A stretch of DNA of 64,000 bases from Mesonia profundi (GTDB lineage Bacteria; Bacteroidota; Bacteroidia; Flavobacteriales; Flavobacteriaceae), in the NCBI RefSeq assembly GCF_031085155.1, contig NZ_JAVHUL010000005.1, forward strand, positions 1-64,000, in the 5' to 3' direction. Under the pieces are notes generated by a model. That model saw only the letters and a program-made list of their open reading frames with translations. It made no database searches and was not told where the DNA came from. Positions 18,363 through 38,048 of this stretch are shown piece after piece (the first letter of the stretch is position 1; each line of letters begins with the position of its first letter). The position numbers and the translations under genes are program-made.

Positions 18363-18794
18363 TTATTTACAAGCGATTTTTTCTACTCTTTTTTGATGTC
18401 TTCCTCCTTCAAATGGCGTTGCTATAAATGATTTTACCATATCTATAGCTTGGGGCATCGAAGTGAATCTTGCCGGAATACTCAATATATTAGCATCATT
18501 ATGTGCACGTGCTAATTTAGTAATTTCATTGGTCCAACACAGGGCGCATCTTACATTTTGATGTTTATTAGCCGTCATAGAAGCTCCGTTACCGCTTCCG
18601 CAGATAATGATTCCGAATTCCACTTTTGCTTCTTCCACATCTTTTGCCACAGGATGTACAAAATCTGGATAATCTACACTATCATTGGTATTGGTTCCAT
18701 GATTAATAACGTTGATCTTGTTTTTTTCTAAAAAAGAAATGATTTCATTTTTATAATCTGTTCCTGCGTGGTCGTTGCCTATAGAAATTGTCAT
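18363..18794 (-). CDS. rpiB: ribose-5-phosphate isomerase B
   Basis: A 143-aa enzyme of the pentose phosphate pathway that interconverts ribose-5-phosphate and ribulose-5-phosphate. The N-terminus 'ISIGNDHAGTDYKNEI' and the active-site segment 'IIICGSGNGASMTANKH' with its catalytic Cys are intact, as is 'ARAHNDANILSIPARF'. The length is normal. It is the first gene of the rpiB-CDF-GNAT operon and has a perfect -7 box just upstream. Its upstream flank is the 1.4-kb spacer that carries DnaA-box-like sites. Confidence 0.95.
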   Translation of the reverse strand: MTISIGNDHAGTDYKNEIISFLEKNKINVINHGTNTNDSVDYPDFVHPVAKDVEEAKVEFGIIICGSGNGASMTANKHQNVRCALCWTNEITKLARAHNDANILSIPARFTSMPQAIDMVKSFIATPFEGGRHQKRVEKIACK

Positions 18795-18817
18795 GAGCTT
18801 AGGTTTTATTAGATTTA

Positions 18818-18825
18818 CAAAGGTA
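18818..18825 (-). promoter_or_regulatory. -7 box of the rpiB operon
   Basis: On the minus strand the site reads TACCTTTG, a perfect TAnnTTTG match, 24-31 bp before the rpiB start codon. Confidence 0.5.
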
Positions 18826-18899
18826 AGAGAAAGCTTAAAATGAGTCGATATTTTGCGATGTTAATTCAATTTCTTAAAAAACTAAAGATGAGCTCTTTA

Positions 18900-19330
18900 C
18901 TATTAACCATGAATTGTGGATAAGTGGCGGTTACTTTTTACAAGTAAAATTTGCTTTTCCATTATTTATTTCCAAGGCGAGGAGATGTTGAATAATCCTA
19001 TGAAAGTTGTTATTATTTTAAAAAAACTTATGAGCATTCAAGTCACACTTATCAACATGGAAAATGTGTAAATAGAATGAACTAAATACTATTCACTTCT
19101 CTATTCACCATTGTTAATAATTAAACGTAAAAATAGAGAATTCAAGGAGTTAGTATTAACAATTCCTTCACATTTGTGTTAAGTAGTTTTCAAAAGATAC
19201 AAATGCAAATTTATAAGAGTATTTTTCTACCGCTATAAACACGCAATCATATACATCATTTATTTTTTTAAATTTATAAAAGAAAAAAGATGATTATATA
19301 TAATGTTCATAACATCTGTGAAGAAATGAG
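18900..19330. other. candidate chromosomal origin (oriC-like region)
   Basis: A non-coding AT-rich stretch in the 1.4-kb rpiB-rnr divergent spacer. It has one perfect DnaA box (TGTGGATAA, complement TTATCCACA) at 18915-18923. Two one-mismatch boxes are TTATCAACA at 19049-19057 and TGTTAATAA at 19112-19120. Several weaker TATTCAC/TGTG motifs lie nearby. From 19255 to 19310 the sequence is almost purely A+T, as expected of an unwinding element. Two parS-like sites 16-18 kb to the right suggest origin proximity. dnaA itself is not in the window. Confidence 0.4.
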
Positions 19331-19375
19331 AAAAAGTATTAAAATGGAATCTAAAAAAAAGAAGATAGAGATATT

Positions 19376-19571
19376 AATATAGTCGTGTCCGACTAAGATA
19401 TAAGACTTGATTCTTATTAGCCCGATAATTAGATTTAATGATTAAGCATTCGTATTAATTTTTAAATTTCAATACTAAACTTAATAGCAAGCTGTTATTT
19501 CATAAAAAACCTCTAAACGCCTTTTATATTTGAATCAACAGAATTCTGTAATGTTTTAATCGGACACTAAT
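19376..19571 (+). mobile_element. MITE-like element, copy 2 (196 bp)
   Basis: The left end AGTCGTGTCCGACTAAGAT and right end GTTTTAATCGGACACTAAT match the copy at 12489-12654 in the same orientation and form imperfect terminal inverted repeats (TGTCCGAYTAA core). GATATT occurs directly on both sides (19370-19375 and 19572-19577), as expected of a 6-bp target duplication. There is no ORF, and the interiors of the two copies differ greatly. From 19578 to 19841 I see nothing further. Confidence 0.55.
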
Positions 19572-19841
19572 GATATTGAAATATGTTTTGAAAACAACAA
19601 GCAAGACTTAATCCTAACTAACCAATAAATAGTTGCGGTTTAAAATAAGATCAACTCAGATAGACCGTTGTAAAGCCTTTACTAAATTGGTATTTAAAGA
19701 TAAATAGGAGTTAGAAATAATTCCGTAGAATTTTTTTAAAAAAAGGAGATACAAACAATAAAATCTTATTTTTAAACAAAAAAAGTCTGATATAAGAATA
19801 GAGATCTAATGGCAGATTTACAATAAGAGCTACTAAAGGTC

Positions 19842-19985
19842 TTAGTGATAATGAAGACTAGTTTGCGTCGTATTACTTTCTTTAGCTGAGGCATTAAAAG
19901 CAGTGTTTACATAAAAAGCAACACATATAAAACCTACCACAAAAATAATAACAAAAAACACGAGTAATTTTTTAGAATTATACAT
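19842..19985 (-). CDS. small single-span membrane protein (47 aa)
   Basis: An ATG-started ORF of 47 codons. It begins 'MYNSKKLLVFFVIIFVVGF', a positively charged tip followed by a hydrophobic helix of about 20 residues. A short polar tail, 'NASAKESNTTQTSLHYH', follows. The layout matches small one-span inner-membrane peptides, with the tail in the periplasm if the positive-inside rule holds. No family is recognised. It stands alone in the rpiB-rnr spacer, divergent from rnr. A chance ORF in AT-rich DNA is possible, but the charge and hydrophobicity pattern argues for a real gene. Confidence 0.5.
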   Translation of the reverse strand: MYNSKKLLVFFVIIFVVGFICVAFYVNTAFNASAKESNTTQTSLHYH

Positions 19986-20189
19986 AATGAAAATGCTACT
20001 GACTTAGCGAATGGGGTTCACTAACAAAGATAATATAATTTTAAGTTTATTTTAACATAAAAGGTTTAAATAATTGTAAAATAATTTCAAAATAGACTTG
20101 CTTCTTTACGCATTCTTAACAAAACATTAAACAGATATTTACTTCATTTCAATTAATAACTGTAATTTTAGACCAGATAAAAACAATAA

Positions 20190-22388
20190 ATGACAAAGAG
20201 AAAAAAGAAAAAAGGAGGAAATAAAATAAAAAACCTTTCTAATAGTATACTTAGCATACTGAGAAAAAACAGTTCTCAAAATTTTAATTATAAGCAAATA
20301 GCGGCCAAACTAGAAGTAGATGACGCTAATAGTAGAAATCAGATTATAAAAGCTTTATCAGAATTAGCAGGAAAAAAGCAAATTATTGAAGCCGAGAGAG
20401 GTAAATTTCAAATTAACGGAAGCACCGATTATTTTGAAGGTAAACTCGATATGACCACTAGAAAAGATGGTTATGTGATTGTAGAAGACCTGGAAGAGGA
20501 TGTATATATCCCACAAAAAAGTTTAAATAAGGCCTTAGATGGTGACTTCGTTAAGATATACGTTTATAAAAGACGAAGAAATGGAAAGAACGAGGGAGAG
20601 GTGGTAGAAATTATCAAGCGTAGCAAAATCCAATTCGTAGGGAAATTGCAAGTGCATGAAAATTTTGGTTTTGTACAAATACAAAGTCCAAAAATGTATA
20701 CTGATATTTTTATTCCCAAAGAAGAAATTGGCGATATTAAAGATGGCATGGTTGTCTTGGCCGAATTAAAAGATTGGCCAGAAAAAGCAGATTCTCCCAT
20801 TGGTAAAATTATAGAAGTCCTGGGTGAAGCTGGAGCGCATGAAACCGAAATGCAATCTATTTTAGCTGAAAACGGACTCCCGAGAGAGTTTCCTAAAGAA
20901 GTAGAAGACTTTGCCAATAAAATAGATACTTCCATTCAAGAAAAGGAAATTAAGAAGCGTCGCGATATGCGCGATACCTTAACCTTTACGATAGATCCCA
21001 AAGATGCTAAAGATTTTGATGACGCGTTAAGTTTTAAAATTTTAGAAAATGGGAATTATGAAGTAGGAATTCACATTGCAGATGTTTCACATTACGTGCA
21101 ACCTGGCAGTATTCTGGATGACGAAGCTTACGAGCGCGCCACTTCCATTTATTTGGTAGACCGCGTAGTGCCTATGTTACCAGAGGTTTTGTCTAATAAT
21201 GCGTGTTCTTTGAGACCCAATGAAGAGAAATATACGTTTTCTGCGGTGTTTGAAATTGATAAGAAAGCGAAAGTGGTAGATCAATGGTTTGGAAGAACCG
21301 TTACCTATAGCGATGCGCGTTTTGCGTACGAAGAAGCACAGTTTATTATAGAAAATAATTCGGGAGATATTCCGGCAGATATATCTATTCAAGACAAAAA
21401 GTATTCTACCACGCCAGAGATTGTAAAGGCGGTAGTTACTTTAGAAGAACTCGCCAAAGTTATGCGTAGAGAACGTATGAAAAGCGGAGCTATTTCTTTT
21501 GATAAGGTAGAGGTGAAGTTCAATTTAGATGAAAATAACGATCCTATTGGCGTTTACTTTAAAACGGCAAAAGAAGCCAATAAGCTTATTGAAGAGTTTA
21601 TGTTGTTGGCCAATAGAAAAGTATCAGAATTTATAGGAAAACAAACGCCTAAGAAGACTTTTGTATACCGTTGTCACGATGAACCCAATGACGATAAATT
21701 GGCAGCTTTAGAAAAGCTAGTCGGTAAATTTGGTCATACGCTCAACCTAAAAGATAAAAAATCTATTTCTACTTCCTTAAACGGTTTGTTAGAAAATGTA
21801 CAAGGTAAAAAAGAGCAGAATTTGGTAGATACGCTTACCATTCGTACCATGAGTAAAGCCTATTACAGCACAAAAAATATTGGACATTACGGGTTAGCAT
21901 TCGACTATTATTCGCATTTTACCTCGCCTATACGACGTTATCCAGATGTGATGGTGCATCGTTTATTGCAACGTTATTTAGACGAAAAACCTTCTGCTAG
22001 CCAAGAAGAATATGAAGAAAAATCTGCACATTGTAGCGATATGGAAAACTTTTCGGTGAGTGCCGAGCGCGATTCCATTAAATACATGCAGGTTAAATTT
22101 ATGCAAGACCATGAAAACGAACAATTTTTGGGCGTAATTTCTGGAGTTACCGAATGGGGAATCTATATAGAAATTGAACAAAATAAGTGCGAAGGAATGG
22201 TAAAGCTAAGAGATATTAAAGAAGACCATTTTGATTTTGATAAAGAAAATTATGCCATTGAAGGCCGTAAAACAGGCAAAATTTACCAATTGGGAGACGA
22301 AGTGTATGTAACGGTAAAAAATGCAGATTTGGTGAAGCGACAATTAGACTTTAACTTAGTGGGGAGTAAACAAGAAGTAGAGCAGTAG
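20190..22388 (+). CDS. rnr: ribonuclease R
   Basis: A 732-aa processive 3'-5' exoribonuclease for structured RNA, acting in the cytoplasm. A lysine-rich N-terminus (MTKRKKKKGG) is followed by a winged-helix domain. Two cold-shock OB domains come next, with 'VYIPQKSLNKALDGDFVKIY' and 'GFVQIQSPKMYTDIFIPKEE'. The RNB catalytic domain has the Asp cluster 'DPKDAKDFDDALSF' starting near residue 269, and a C-terminal S1 domain has 'ISGVTEWGIYIEI'. The length is typical. A weak -7-like TAATTTTA lies at 20163-20170. A dispersed repeat follows the gene, which appears monocistronic. Confidence 0.97.
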   Translation: MTKRKKKKGGNKIKNLSNSILSILRKNSSQNFNYKQIAAKLEVDDANSRNQIIKALSELAGKKQIIEAERGKFQINGSTDYFEGKLDMTTRKDGYVIVEDLEEDVYIPQKSLNKALDGDFVKIYVYKRRRNGKNEGEVVEIIKRSKIQFVGKLQVHENFGFVQIQSPKMYTDIFIPKEEIGDIKDGMVVLAELKDWPEKADSPIGKIIEVLGEAGAHETEMQSILAENGLPREFPKEVEDFANKIDTSIQEKEIKKRRDMRDTLTFTIDPKDAKDFDDALSFKILENGNYEVGIHIADVSHYVQPGSILDDEAYERATSIYLVDRVVPMLPEVLSNNACSLRPNEEKYTFSAVFEIDKKAKVVDQWFGRTVTYSDARFAYEEAQFIIENNSGDIPADISIQDKKYSTTPEIVKAVVTLEELAKVMRRERMKSGAISFDKVEVKFNLDENNDPIGVYFKTAKEANKLIEEFMLLANRKVSEFIGKQTPKKTFVYRCHDEPNDDKLAALEKLVGKFGHTLNLKDKKSISTSLNGLLENVQGKKEQNLVDTLTIRTMSKAYYSTKNIGHYGLAFDYYSHFTSPIRRYPDVMVHRLLQRYLDEKPSASQEEYEEKSAHCSDMENFSVSAERDSIKYMQVKFMQDHENEQFLGVISGVTEWGIYIEIEQNKCEGMVKLRDIKEDHFDFDKENYAIEGRKTGKIYQLGDEVYVTVKNADLVKRQLDFNLVGSKQEVEQ

Positions 22389-34700: not shown

Positions 34701-35179
34701 AACCCGGGGAAGGTAAACCGGGAAGTCAAGGAGAAAACGGAGAACGTGGAGGAAACGGAGAATCTGAAAAAATGAGTAAAGAATTGTTTGAGATATTTAA
34801 GGAACAACAATCTCTGCGTATGCAGTTAAATGATATGATTAAACAACAAAATTTGGGTCCAGAAGCTAAACGTTTATCGCGCGCTATGGAGCATATTGAG
34901 GATGAGTTACTCACCAAGGGGATAACTAAAAATACGGGCACCAAAATGAAGCAAATAGAACATCGGTTATTAGAGATGGAGAATGCGATGCTACAACAAG
35001 GAGAAGAACAAAAAAGAACTTCAGAAACCAACGATAAAGACTTTACGAATGAAGCTAGTTCACTTAAAACAAAGGCTAAAGATTATTTTAATACGACCGA
35101 AATATTAAATAGACAAGCCTTACCTTTGCAAAAAAATTATCAAGAGATTGTAAAAGAATACTTTACCGAGAAAGAATGA
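31721..35179 (+). CDS. DUF4175 family giant membrane protein
   Basis: A 1152-aa protein typical of Bacteroidetes. Hydrophobic helices lie at about 21-43, 50-75 and 148-166. An extracytoplasmic beta-rich part follows (about 190-480), then an extensive coiled coil rich in Lys, Glu and Gln (about 490-780). After another helical segment comes a Gly/Glu/Lys/Gln-rich low-complexity stretch (about 907-1016, repeats of the type 'KPGEGK'), and finally a helical C-terminus. The function is unknown; the family is often found near envelope and RNA genes. The stop overlaps the ybeY ATG by 4 nt, suggesting coupling. Confidence 0.88.
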   Translation: MNNYQHIQQKLEGFIRKFYINELLKGVILFFAIGLIYFLMTVFLEYFLWLSSLGRSILFWLFIGVEVALFIKFILIPISKLFKLSRGISHEEASQMIGKHFPQVDDKLLNVLQLQKEKHLQDSDLLLASIEQKSKELQPVPFTTAINFKSNVGYLKYAIIPLAIFLAIYISGNEQLFSDSYARVVNYEREYEPPAPFAFQLDESKLQVKENEQVSLKITTQGKVIPETAKIHIQEKDYILKQVAPGVFEYTFTRIKNNTNFYLSSNEVTSKSYQIEVTQVPTLVDFKMHLDYPAYINQPDEVMEGTGNATIPEGTKVKWQLTTNATDEVRLDGLDSLYAFKKQNHKFVLEKSIYHSSDYAVVSSNASLKDYEKLYYSLKVIKDQFPSIQVEKKEDSAQAAIHYFKGVITDDHAITNLQIVYYPVRDRKNLKTKKLPFNGKDYAEFFYQFPNELDLEKGVPYEFYFIVTDNDAVHHYKSKKSKVFGYQLLTNKEEKERNLENQENAMQGMSESLQEMKSRNKQLKELDQSQREKKQLNYQDKEKLKNFTERQRQQDELMKSYTEKMKQNLEDLKTNDPLKKELEKRLEKSQKEMEKDNKLLEELEKYQEKLNKEDLHKKMEELSKRNTTQQKSLEQLLELTKRYYVEQKAEKIASDLQELAKEQEKLGLEEKENTSEAQEELNKDFEDIQKQMDELEKENEKLKSPMDIPREESQEDAVKEDQDDAKENLEKSEEEEGKESAPSKKSAQKKQQSAAEKMKQMSQKMKSAMAQGGQEQLEEDAEMLRQILENLMSFSFEQEDLMLQFEKLNDNSPRYVRNLKQQQTLKENFKHVDDSLFGLASRNPMISENITSVITDINFNIDKALERFADNQIPRGVASQQYVFKGANDLANMLNESLEQMQMQMNAQGEGEGSSGKGKEGEGQGAGFQLKDIIKKQGELGEEAGEKGKKPGEGKQGQFPNGKKPGAGEGGEQGEGGQKPGEGKDGNQGENGQQPGEGKPGSQGENGERGGNGESEKMSKELFEIFKEQQSLRMQLNDMIKQQNLGPEAKRLSRAMEHIEDELLTKGITKNTGTKMKQIEHRLLEMENAMLQQGEEQKRTSETNDKDFTNEASSLKTKAKDYFNTTEILNRQALPLQKNYQEIVKEYFTEKE

Positions 35180-35595
35180 TACAGTTTTTTAGTGAAAATG
35201 AGTTTATTTTATCAGAAGAAATGCATTATGAAAAGTGGGTTTCTACTATCATAACATCTGAAGGATTTTCAGAAGGGGAAATCAGTTATATATTTTGTGA
35301 TGATGACTATTTATTAAAACTTAATAAAGACTATTTAGATCACGATACGCTTACCGATATCATTACGTTTAACTACAATATGGGGAAACAAATTAATAGT
35401 GATATTTATATTTCTACAGAGCGACTTACCGAGAATGCGAAGGACTTTCATGTAAGTTTTGAAGATGAGCTTCGACGAGTGATGAGTCATGGGATTCTCC
35501 ATCTATGTGGTTTTAATGATAAAACCCCAGAAGAAGAAGAGACTATGAGGGAAAAGGAAAATGAAAAAATGAAAATGTTCCACGTGGAACAATAG
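35176..35595 (+). CDS. ybeY: endoribonuclease YbeY, rRNA maturation factor
   Basis: A 139-aa metallo-RNase for 16S rRNA 3' processing and ribosome quality control. The metal motif is 'MSHGILHLCGFNDKTPEEEE': His105 and His109 are present, but the third position of HxxxHxxxxxH is Asp115 rather than His. This appears to be a lineage variant of the family in Bacteroidetes. The last codons (FHVEQ) are encoded by a perfect parS-like palindrome. It overlaps the DUF4175 gene by 4 nt and lies 12 bp before mnmG. Confidence 0.93.
   Translation: MIQFFSENEFILSEEMHYEKWVSTIITSEGFSEGEISYIFCDDDYLLKLNKDYLDHDTLTDIITFNYNMGKQINSDIYISTERLTENAKDFHVSFEDELRRVMSHGILHLCGFNDKTPEEEETMREKENEKMKMFHVEQ
35576..35591. promoter_or_regulatory. 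parS-like centromere site 1
   Basis: TGTTCCACGTGGAACA is a perfect 16-bp palindrome of the parS class bound by ParB (B. subtilis consensus TGTTTCACGTGAAACA). It lies inside the last codons of ybeY, just upstream of mnmG. An identical site follows mnmG. Confidence 0.8.
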
Positions 35596-35607
35596 AAAAA
35601 AACACCT

Positions 35608-37479
35608 ATGTTTTTAGAAGAATATGATGTGATTGTTGTAGGAGGAGGCCACGCGGGAAGCGAGGCTGCTGCTGCTGCTGCAAATATGGGAAGTAAGACT
35701 TTATTAATTACCATGAGTCTCCAAAATATAGCTCAAATGTCTTGTAATCCCGCTATGGGCGGAATTGCAAAAGGACAGATTGTGCGAGAGATTGATGCCT
35801 TGGGAGGTTATAGCGGAATTGTAAGCGATACGAGTGCCATTCAGTTTAAGATGTTGAATAAAAGTAAAGGGCCTGCCATGTGGAGTCCGCGAGTGCAAAG
35901 TGACCGGATGCGTTTTGCTGAAGATTGGCGATTGATGCTAGAGAAAACTCCGAACCTAGATTTTTATCAAGAGATGGTTTCGGGATTAATTATAGAGGGG
36001 GATGAAATCAAAGGAGTGAAAACTTCTTTGGGAATTGAAATTAAATCTAAATCGGTTATTCTTACCAATGGAACTTTCCTAAACGGTCTTATACATATTG
36101 GAGATAAAAACTTTGGTGGAGGTAGAGCAGGAGAAAGAGCGGCCACAGGAATTACCGCCGACTTGATTGAAATGGGTTTTGAATCTGGAAGAATGAAAAC
36201 AGGAACACCCCCAAGAGTGGATGGTCGTTCTTTAGATTTCTCTAAAATGATTGAACAACCTGGAGATGCCATTCCTGCTAAGTTTTCTTATTTGGATATT
36301 ACCAAGCCCTTAGAGAAACAACGCTCTTGCCATATGACGTATACTTCTACATTGGTGCACGATGTTTTGCGCGAAGGTTTTGATCGCTCTCCCATGTTTA
36401 ATGGAAGAATTGAAAGTGTAGGACCTAGGTATTGCCCAAGTATAGAAGATAAAATTAATCGCTTCGCCGATAAAGACCGTCACCAACTCTTTGTAGAACC
36501 TGAAGGTTGGAATACGGTAGAGTATTATGTAAATGGTTTCTCTACTAGCTTACCAGAAGATGTACAATACAACGCATTAAAATCTGTAGAAGGATTTGAA
36601 AAGGTCAAATTTTTTAGACCGGGATATGCGATAGAATACGATTATTTTCCACCTACACAATTAAGACATACTTTAGAAACCAAGTTGGTTAACGGACTTT
36701 ATTTTGCAGGTCAAATTAATGGAACTACAGGTTATGAAGAAGCCGCTTCTCAGGGTTTAATGGCTGGGATTAATGCTGCTTTAAAAGTACAAGAACGGGA
36801 AGCTTTTACCTTAAAGCGCGATGAGGCGTATATAGGTGTTCTTATTGACGATTTAATCACCAAGGGTACAGAAGAGCCTTATCGTATGTTTACTTCGCGT
36901 GCAGAATATCGTACGCTGTTGAGGCAGGATAATGCCGATTTCCGTTTAACGGAAAAGTCTTATCAAATTGGATTAGCCGGGGAGAAACGATTAAAACGAA
37001 TGGAGGAGAAGAAAGAAGCTTCTTTGGGATTTGTTGACTTCTTTAAGAAAACCAGTGTGACGCCAGAAGAAGCGAATCCGGTGTTGGAAAGTAATAATTC
37101 TGCTCCCGTAAAACAGAGCGGAAAAATGTTTAAGCTTTTTGCACGGCCTAATATTTCTATGGACGATGTAAGAAAATTTGAGTCGGTGGAGAACTATGTT
37201 CAAGAACATCAACTAGATCAAGAAGTGTTAGAGCAAGCCGAAATTCAAGTGAAATATTCGGGTTATATTAATAAGGAAAAGAACAACGCTGATAAACTCC
37301 ATCGATTGGAGAATTTAAAAATTCCCGCTAATTTTGATTATTCACCTATACAGTCGATGTCTTTAGAAGCGCGTGAGAAGTTGAATAAAATTCAGCCCAC
37401 AAGCGTTTCTCAAGCTTCAAGAGTAAGCGGGGTGAGTCCGGCAGATATTTCAGTATTATTGGTATATTTGGGTAGATAA
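35608..37479 (+). CDS. mnmG: tRNA uridine-5-carboxymethylaminomethyl modification enzyme MnmG
   Basis: A 623-aa FAD enzyme (GidA) that, with MnmE, installs the cmnm5 group on the wobble uridine of certain tRNAs. The N-terminal FAD motif 'DVIVVGGGHAGSEAA' lies at 7-21. The family segments 'SCNPAMGGIAKGQIVREIDALGG' region, 'GTFLNGLIHIG' and 'RAEYRTLLRQDNAD' are intact, and the C-terminal helical domain ends 'VSPADISVLLVYLG'. The length is normal. It is bracketed by two parS-like sites, the downstream one 8 bp after its stop. Confidence 0.98.
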   Translation: MFLEEYDVIVVGGGHAGSEAAAAAANMGSKTLLITMSLQNIAQMSCNPAMGGIAKGQIVREIDALGGYSGIVSDTSAIQFKMLNKSKGPAMWSPRVQSDRMRFAEDWRLMLEKTPNLDFYQEMVSGLIIEGDEIKGVKTSLGIEIKSKSVILTNGTFLNGLIHIGDKNFGGGRAGERAATGITADLIEMGFESGRMKTGTPPRVDGRSLDFSKMIEQPGDAIPAKFSYLDITKPLEKQRSCHMTYTSTLVHDVLREGFDRSPMFNGRIESVGPRYCPSIEDKINRFADKDRHQLFVEPEGWNTVEYYVNGFSTSLPEDVQYNALKSVEGFEKVKFFRPGYAIEYDYFPPTQLRHTLETKLVNGLYFAGQINGTTGYEEAASQGLMAGINAALKVQEREAFTLKRDEAYIGVLIDDLITKGTEEPYRMFTSRAEYRTLLRQDNADFRLTEKSYQIGLAGEKRLKRMEEKKEASLGFVDFFKKTSVTPEEANPVLESNNSAPVKQSGKMFKLFARPNISMDDVRKFESVENYVQEHQLDQEVLEQAEIQVKYSGYINKEKNNADKLHRLENLKIPANFDYSPIQSMSLEAREKLNKIQPTSVSQASRVSGVSPADISVLLVYLGR

Positions 37480-37486
37480 TGAAACA

Positions 37487-37502
37487 TGTTCCACGTGGAA
37501 CA
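37487..37502. promoter_or_regulatory. parS-like centromere site 2
   Basis: TGTTCCACGTGGAACA, identical to the site at 35576-35591, lies between the mnmG stop and the likely start of the following lipoprotein gene. An ATG-initiated frame through it would translate it as 'HVPRGT', which is probably not real protein. Confidence 0.8.
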
Positions 37503-37511
37503 TTAGGTTTT

Positions 37512-38048
37512 ATGAAAAAGTTTTTAATAATAATTAGCGGTTTTTTAATATTGAGTAGCTGTATATCTATACATAAAGCTGAACGTATTGAGAACTATAA
37601 ATTATCTACTAAAAAAATTAATCAAGTTGACTTAACCTCTTATGTGATTCAATATTCAGGAAATGGAATGAGGCATTTTGAAAATATGTATCAACGTTTC
37701 TTTGATGTTGAAGATCACTTTTCTATTTACGAACTTGAGACAACTTCTCTTTTTGGCTCTGAAAAATTTAAAGTTTTTAGTCACTTTGATCAGGACTATG
37801 ATAAAAGCTTAAGTATTTTTGATGTTATAGATTCTGCTCAAGAATCTAAAAAGACTCAACAAGAAAAAGATAGAGATAAACCCTATAAAGATAGAAGAGA
37901 AGAACAAGATAGAAAAAATAATAAAGTGGAGTATGTTTACATTCAAATTATGGGTGAAGATGGGCAAGATATTTTAGCAGAAAAATCGATGCGAAAGGAT
38001 GCTATTCTACAAAAACTGCATCAACTTAGAAAACAATTAAATCGTTAA
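37512..38048 (+). CDS. putative lipoprotein of unknown function
   Basis: A 178-aa protein beginning 'MKKFLIIISGFLILSSC', a clean lipoprotein signal with the lipobox Cys at residue 17. An upstream in-frame ATG at 37479 overlaps the mnmG stop and would read through the parS site, so it is rejected. The mature part is hydrophilic, with a strongly charged Lys/Glu/Asp/Arg stretch near residues 112-140 and a 'VEYVYIQIMGEDGQDI' segment. No family is recognised. The stop overlaps the methyltransferase start by one base (TAATG), so the two are likely co-expressed. Confidence 0.75.
   Translation: MKKFLIIISGFLILSSCISIHKAERIENYKLSTKKINQVDLTSYVIQYSGNGMRHFENMYQRFFDVEDHFSIYELETTSLFGSEKFKVFSHFDQDYDKSLSIFDVIDSAQESKKTQQEKDRDKPYKDRREEQDRKNNKVEYVYIQIMGEDGQDILAEKSMRKDAILQKLHQLRKQLNR

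Follow-up and report, generated by a model that had tools for sequence, protein, structure and literature searches.

Identical palindromes on both sides of mnmG

We analyzed a 64,000-nucleotide stretch of the draft genome of Mesonia profundi (the window). Three genes follow one another on its forward strand: ybeY (35176-35595), mnmG, also known as gidA (35608-37479), and a short lipoprotein-like gene (37512-38048). ybeY encodes the endoribonuclease YbeY (Pfam PF02130, E = 5.9e-27), whose sequence ends with MKMFHVEQ just before the stop codon, and mnmG is a tRNA-modification gene (PF01134 or GIDA, E = 5.2e-161). The third gene is an open reading frame without a Pfam match, and we judged its lipoprotein nature by eye. 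In an Rfam scan at the gathering level, a tRNA was the sole match.

The 16-nucleotide palindrome TGTTCCACGTGGAACA occurs on both sides of mnmG. Site 1 (35576-35591) lies within the final codons of ybeY, and 16 bp separate it from the start of mnmG at 35608. Site 2 (37487-37502) is the same 16-mer and lies 7 bp past the stop codon of mnmG. Neither site is assigned to a strand. The first-pass annotation of this DNA had reported these two identical copies, and both are present as described. It had also proposed that they explain two odd protein ends, FHVEQ at the C terminus of YbeY and HVPRGT in a false start of the next gene, and both explanations fit. The MFHVEQ of YbeY is the translation of the 16-mer at site 1. 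At site 2, an in-frame ATG at 37479 reads MKHVPRGTLGFM (MKHVPRGT...), and a signal-peptide-like start for the lipoprotein-like gene, MKKFLIIISGFLILSSC, begins at 37512. The ATG at 37479 is probably not the true start, and translation from it would run through the palindrome.

The pair had been called very unlikely to arise by chance, and random scatter of the 16-mer across the genome had been named as evidence against a centromere. We found no scatter. With up to 3 mismatches, the two sites are the sole matches in the window (the mean for shuffled sequence was 0.08, and two matches were reached in 2/100 shuffles). With up to 2 mismatches, the entire draft genome (3,077,385 bases in 76 contigs) has no sites other than these two, which are clustered 1.9 kb apart, and the reversed pattern had no matches there. 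From base composition, about 4e-4 exact copies of the 16-mer would be expected in this genome.

The palindromes as probable parS sites

The first-pass annotation had compared the shape of the palindrome to the ParB sites of Bacillus subtilis. This can be made more precise. In the available portion of PMC7022226, the parS of Pseudomonas putida is given as TGTTCCACGTGGAACA and is counted in the ori domain, so the 16-bp dyad in the window is identical to it. The dyad also resembles TGTTNCACGTGAAACA of B. subtilis, and the parS consensus of Myxococcus xanthus differs from TGTTCCACGTGGAACA at the last base (PMC7022226, same portion).

Absence of ParB had been listed as evidence against these being centromere sites, and we found ParB beside ParA. 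Contig C34 of this genome carries a parA-parB operon, with ParA (254 amino acids; PF13614, E = 1.2e-68) encoded immediately upstream of ParB (301 amino acids). This ParB contains the ParB_N, HTH_ParB, and ParB_C domains (PF02195, PF17762, and PF23552). Its closest solved relatives are the ParB family proteins 7bnk (E = 1e-53) and 7bnr and 7o0n (both with E of about 6e-53), followed by Spo0J (6sdk and 1vz0). A second protein with a ParB_N domain, of 601 amino acids and so far longer than the chromosomal ParB, is encoded on contig C5 of the same genome (C5:75209-75487, locus L004). The relative G036 has a second ParB_N protein too, of 599 amino acids, about 0.38 Mb from its parS sites.

The identity to the parS of P. 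putida, the lack of other sites in the genome, the presence of parA and parB, and the conservation beside mnmG (see below) support the parS reading. Points against it are the relatives that have no site, the missing downstream site in other orders of the class, the weak skew of G053, the distance of parB from parS in complete relatives, and the lack of a match to ScpA (all described below). On balance, we consider it very likely that the two palindromes are parS sites, the chromosomal centromere of a ParABS system, with each one a predicted docking site for ParB. parS is a known kind of element; what is noteworthy here is its strikingly fixed place beside mnmG.

Established knowledge of ParABS systems suggests how the pair might work. 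A ParB dimer would dock on each 16-bp dyad with its HTH domain. ParB, with CTP bound, would then close as a clamp and slide outward over ybeY, mnmG, and their neighbors, and the ParA ATPase would move the ParB-loaded origin region to opposite halves of the cell.

The SMC-ScpAB condensin is usually loaded at parS. We found no match to ScpA in this genome, while the ScpA family was detected in 9 of 14 control genomes. There are 17 matches to SMC_N, none of which could be assigned to SMC itself. On this evidence, the sites would not act as loading sites for SMC-ScpAB. According to the available portion of PMC10197239, no homolog of a known condensin was found in the two Bacteroidetes that were studied.

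Distribution of the sites

The first-pass annotation had suggested comparing the flanks of mnmG in related genomes, and this comparison favors parS. All 15 of the sampled congeners have the pair of sites, with a spacing of 1909-1914 bp. More broadly, a match with at most 1 mismatch to the 16-mer is present in 48 of 60 genomes (counting our own) and absent from 12; the reversed control matched in 1/60. Of 148 genomes in the phylum (again including our own), 110 contain the exact sequence TGTTYCACGTGRAACA and 38 do not; the reversed control was found in 1/148.

For a closer view of gene positions, we used the best 80 of 591 confirmed relatives of MnmG, all in named genomes. Allowing up to 2 mismatches and a distance of up to 150 bp on each side, mnmG is bracketed by sites in 68 of these 80 loci. 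In the others, there is a site upstream only (6 loci), downstream only (4), or on neither side (2). In other words, an upstream site is present at 74/80 loci, a downstream site at 72/80, and at least one site at 78/80, and the reversed control had no matches with up to 2 mismatches across the 1.58 Mb of these loci. The loci share descent, so these counts are not independent.

We also examined 20 further regions from genomes that have a site among the matches listed; these show where the sites sit, not how often they occur. mnmG adjoins a site in 18 of the 20. Ten of the regions are from another family in the same phylum (f29), whose MnmG is about 51% identical, and in these mnmG is bracketed in 8 cases and has a downstream site only in 2 (with at most 1 mismatch, among the matches listed). 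The FMO protein family is present in all 6 of the f29 genomes tested and in 0 of 14 control genomes, and we take the f29 genomes to be green sulfur bacteria (Chlorobiaceae). The other ten regions are from other orders of the same class. Eight of these include mnmG, and among these matches the sites are upstream of it in 8/8, with no site downstream even at 3 mismatches. So the association with mnmG is broad, and the two-sided bracket is seen in the Flavobacteriales and in f29, unlike in the eight regions from other orders. In regions from the other orders (L254-L263), the upstream sites are often in groups of two or three, and L254 has an extra site inside mnmG.

In the single-contig relative G047, ParB is present, and a search with up to 2 mismatches found no parS-like site. 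Lone sites with 2 mismatches mean little, because at this stringency there were 14 site matches across 7 genomes and 6 scattered matches for the reversed control.

Selection on DNA in the end of ybeY

In 72 of the best 80 of 591 loci, both ybeY and an upstream site are present. The nearest upstream site overlaps the ybeY reading frame in 25 of these 72 and lies beyond the stop codon of ybeY in the other 47. Among the 78 YbeY proteins that could be read to a stop (from the window and the same best 80 loci), 40 have a tail with FHV or FHM. We picked these tails by protein sequence and not by a match to the DNA.

In these tails, histidine is encoded by CAC in 40/40 cases, as compared to 13.5 expected from the codon usage of mnmG in the same genomes, and valine by GTG in 38/38 cases (7.1 expected on the same basis). 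Phenylalanine is encoded by TTC in 31 cases and TTT in 9, which is exactly the Y of the parS consensus. These loci are kin by descent, so we give the counts without a formal probability. Synonymous positions in the YbeY tails are frozen beyond what codon usage explains. These sequences show selection on the DNA and not on the YbeY peptide, and the tail MFHVEQ can be read as a translated centromere.

Replication origin and the positions of dnaA and parB

We computed GC skew in complete, single-contig relatives, sampling each genome in 20 stretches of 20 kb. In four of six genomes (G029, G036, G038, and G049), the skew switches from negative to positive between the samples on either side of the pair of sites, though the skew of G049 is weak. 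In Polaribacter sp. BM10 (G060), the switch is at 2260-2400 kb, beside the site at 2448 kb (about 50 kb off), and the site beside mnmG is degenerate. In the sixth genome (G053), the skew is weak, with its minimum 0.32-0.53 Mb from the sites. The cumulative skew of G029 has its minimum at 889.9 kb, and the sites are at 932-934 kb. In G036, the cumulative minimum is broad: it is lowest at 1234 kb and nearly equal from about 1156 kb, and the pair is at 1165-1167 kb. We confirmed that mnmG lies between the sites in G029, G036, and G038 and beside the site in G060. In G049, mnmG was confirmed beside the first site, and the fetched stretch ends within mnmG. G053, G116, G176, and G192 are known from their sites alone.

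The cumulative skew of the window's own contig is nearly level over the first 20 kb or so, with its lowest point at 6.9 kb; it then climbs until about 100 kb and declines a little over the last 10 kb. The genome is a draft, so the suggestion that oriC is close to the sites gains indirect support, from this rise past about 20 kb and from the skew of the complete relatives.

The origin region indicated by skew is not where dnaA is. In all eight of the single-contig Flavobacteriales that we scored, dnaA is 0.75-1.92 Mb from the sites (G029, 0.93 Mb; G036, 1.92; G038, 1.15; G049, 1.41; G053, 1.42; G116, 0.75; G176, 1.37; G192, 1.70). This excludes G047, which has no site, and G051, which has neither a site nor dnaA. 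In the sampled genomes, dnaA is far from the skew minimum, and we rejected it as a marker of the origin. In the textbook layout, parB is near parS. Here, 0.80-1.29 Mb separate the chromosomal type of parB from the sites in 6/6 genomes. In our own genome, neither parB nor dnaA is on the contig of the pair. Because dnaA and parAB are not beside the centromere in Flavobacteriales, "near oriC" should not be read as "near dnaA." Four Chlorobiaceae-like genomes, each a single contig, have dnaA no more than about 10 kb from the site or pair; for two of them, the distance presumes a circular contig. We infer that the block of mnmG and parS stayed at the origin and that dnaA and parAB moved off in the Flavobacteriales line.

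This arrangement differs from those of P. putida and P. aeruginosa, in which gidA/mnmG is beside both parAB and oriC: the complete relatives of our genome have parB at the distances given above, and our genome has two sites only, which bracket mnmG.

Other explanations for the palindromes

Since the start of mnmG and that of the following gene each adjoin a site, the dyads could instead be operators at which a transcription factor controls ybeY, mnmG, or the lipoprotein-like gene. The regions from other orders of the class fit this idea, as their sites are solely upstream of mnmG (8/8, among the matches listed). But the 16-mer equals a known parS and occurs nowhere else in the genome, and sites are found both before and after mnmG in 68/80 loci (best 80 of 591). 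The sites are also multiplied in the ybeY-mnmG gaps of some Flavobacterium (12 in L030), and they are at or near the skew minimum in 5/6 relatives. Furthermore, promoter-like matches in the region are at the chance level (10 versus 10.2 expected). We consider operators to be very unlikely. A similarly slim chance goes to the idea that the palindromes are parS by descent and have become relics that no longer work as a centromere. The distance of parAB and dnaA from the mnmG neighborhood in Flavobacteriales would suit a relic, but both copies are strongly conserved, including at synonymous positions, and the genome has no other sites.

The palindromes might also act in RNA, as intergenic hairpins or terminators. 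Each site can fold as a hairpin of 6-7 bp (z = -2.7 and -2.4), and a loose scan for terminators was passed by site 2 on both strands and by site 1 on the minus strand (4 versus 1.4 expected). If pairing in RNA mattered, then C/A combinations, which break a pair, should be rarer than T/G combinations, which keep a U-G wobble. Instead, counting the sites around mnmG in the window and in the best 80 of 591 loci, we observed 44 C/A and 25 T/G. This was the sharpest test of the rival explanations, and we rejected the hairpin or terminator on this count even though the sites can fold. In addition, loop (ACGT) and stem are equally fixed in the parS consensus, and the nearest upstream site is inside an open reading frame in 25/72 of the loci described above. 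We view a role in RNA as highly improbable. Finally, the repeat could be a by-product of a conserved peptide tail in YbeY, or due to chance. The tails with FHV or FHM are indeed common (40/78), but their frozen synonymous positions are not explained by the peptide, and the nearest site is beyond the stop codon of ybeY in 47/72 loci. If the start at 37512 is right, then the copy after mnmG is non-coding as well. The codon counts rule out this explanation for practical purposes, and we give it next to no weight.

A candidate oriC

If the palindromes are parS, the origin itself might be nearby. Between the divergent genes rpiB (18363-18794, minus strand) and rnr (20190-22388, plus strand) is an AT-rich gap (18795-20189; 26% GC), about 15-17 kb from site 1. 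We lean towards this gap being oriC. It contains the DnaA-box-like sequences TTATCCACA (at 18915, minus strand) and TTATCAACA (at 19049, plus strand). G029 and G036 have the same divergent gene pair, at distances of about 20 kb and 18 kb from their sites, respectively. In further loci, the fetched flanks of mnmG also include rnr or rpiB.

In an alignment of 12 rpiB-rnr gaps, there is a block around TATTAACAnnCTATnATAAnnAT. With at most 1 mismatch, this block has 8 matches in 4.63 Mb of fetched DNA, and all of these are in the rpiB-rnr gap; the recurrence is partly by construction, because the block was defined from the same 12 gaps. The window's copy (19234-19256, plus strand) is weak, as 3 of the 18 fixed positions differ. 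Outside the defining set, the block was found in L038, L059, and L109, all with 2 mismatches and not above the permuted control. Overall, there were 13 matches, as compared to 2 to 8 in five permutations. A 24-mer from G029 that we tried as the motif for this block had a good match only in G029 and the window.

DnaA boxes are more common than expected in the 12 gaps (14 versus 4.1 with at most 1 mismatch; 1 versus 0.12 for exact matches). As proof of oriC, the density of boxes is weak, since 6 of the 12 gaps lack any box at 1 mismatch.

Relation to previous work

That the origin can be away from dnaA, and beside mnmG in Flavobacteriaceae, is already in print, as far as the available portions of PMC10197239, PMC11278836, and PMC12843772 go. 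In the first of these, clusters of parS and GC skew mark the origin in Bacteroides caecimuris and other gut bacteria, along with Hi-C, and dnaA is not always located at the origin. That portion of PMC10197239 mentions neither mnmG nor ybeY nor a bracket of two sites, unlike the arrangement in our window. In the available portions of the other two (PMC11278836 and PMC12843772), Ori-Finder and GC skew place oriC of Flavobacteriaceae at mnmG, and in Mariniflexile, dnaA is mismatched with the skew. Our candidate in the rpiB-rnr gap is 15-17 kb away from this predicted location. What is available of PMC11278836 makes no mention of parS, and a figure legend there marks mnmG as ter, against the paper's own text. 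We found no description of parS around mnmG in the open-access literature that we searched, and the survey of Livny 2007 may list some of the sites.

A broader reading is that the centromere beside mnmG is an old segregation locus of Bacteroidota and Chlorobi, free of SMC-ScpAB, that was kept together with mnmG at the origin even as dnaA and parAB of the Flavobacteriales relocated by megabases. On this reading, in Flavobacteriales and Chlorobiaceae, two clamp-loading points that flank one transcription unit of roughly 1.9 kb would be functional, and the centromere would be partly written in the codons of YbeY. As a whole, we regard this as speculative and rather unlikely; we lowered its odds because the sampled other orders have sites upstream of mnmG only.

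parS beside mnmG could serve as a landmark for the origin region, from sequence alone, where dnaA misleads. The end of ybeY provides a natural example of selection on a centromere within coding sequence. ParB could also be studied here in a setting in which our search found no ScpA and in which the relatives have parAB far from parS.

Variants of the sites

Some Flavobacterium (L030, L037, and L039) have arrays of parS-like sites in an enlarged gap between ybeY and mnmG. The array in L030 has 12 sites in 1.2 kb with up to 2 mismatches, four of which are of the CACATGG form. In five of the best 80 of 591 loci (L023, L024, L025, L026, and L034), TCTTCCACGTGAAACA is present about 6.4-7.4 kb from the start of mnmG, which may reflect a coincidence in coding sequence or a third, weak site. 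The Kordia locus L038 and L059 have the site variant TGTTCCACATGGAACA, and two Polaribacter loci (L070 and L073) have the variants TGTTCCTCGTGGAACA or TGTTCCACGAGGAACA. In these four loci, ParB and parS may have co-evolved.
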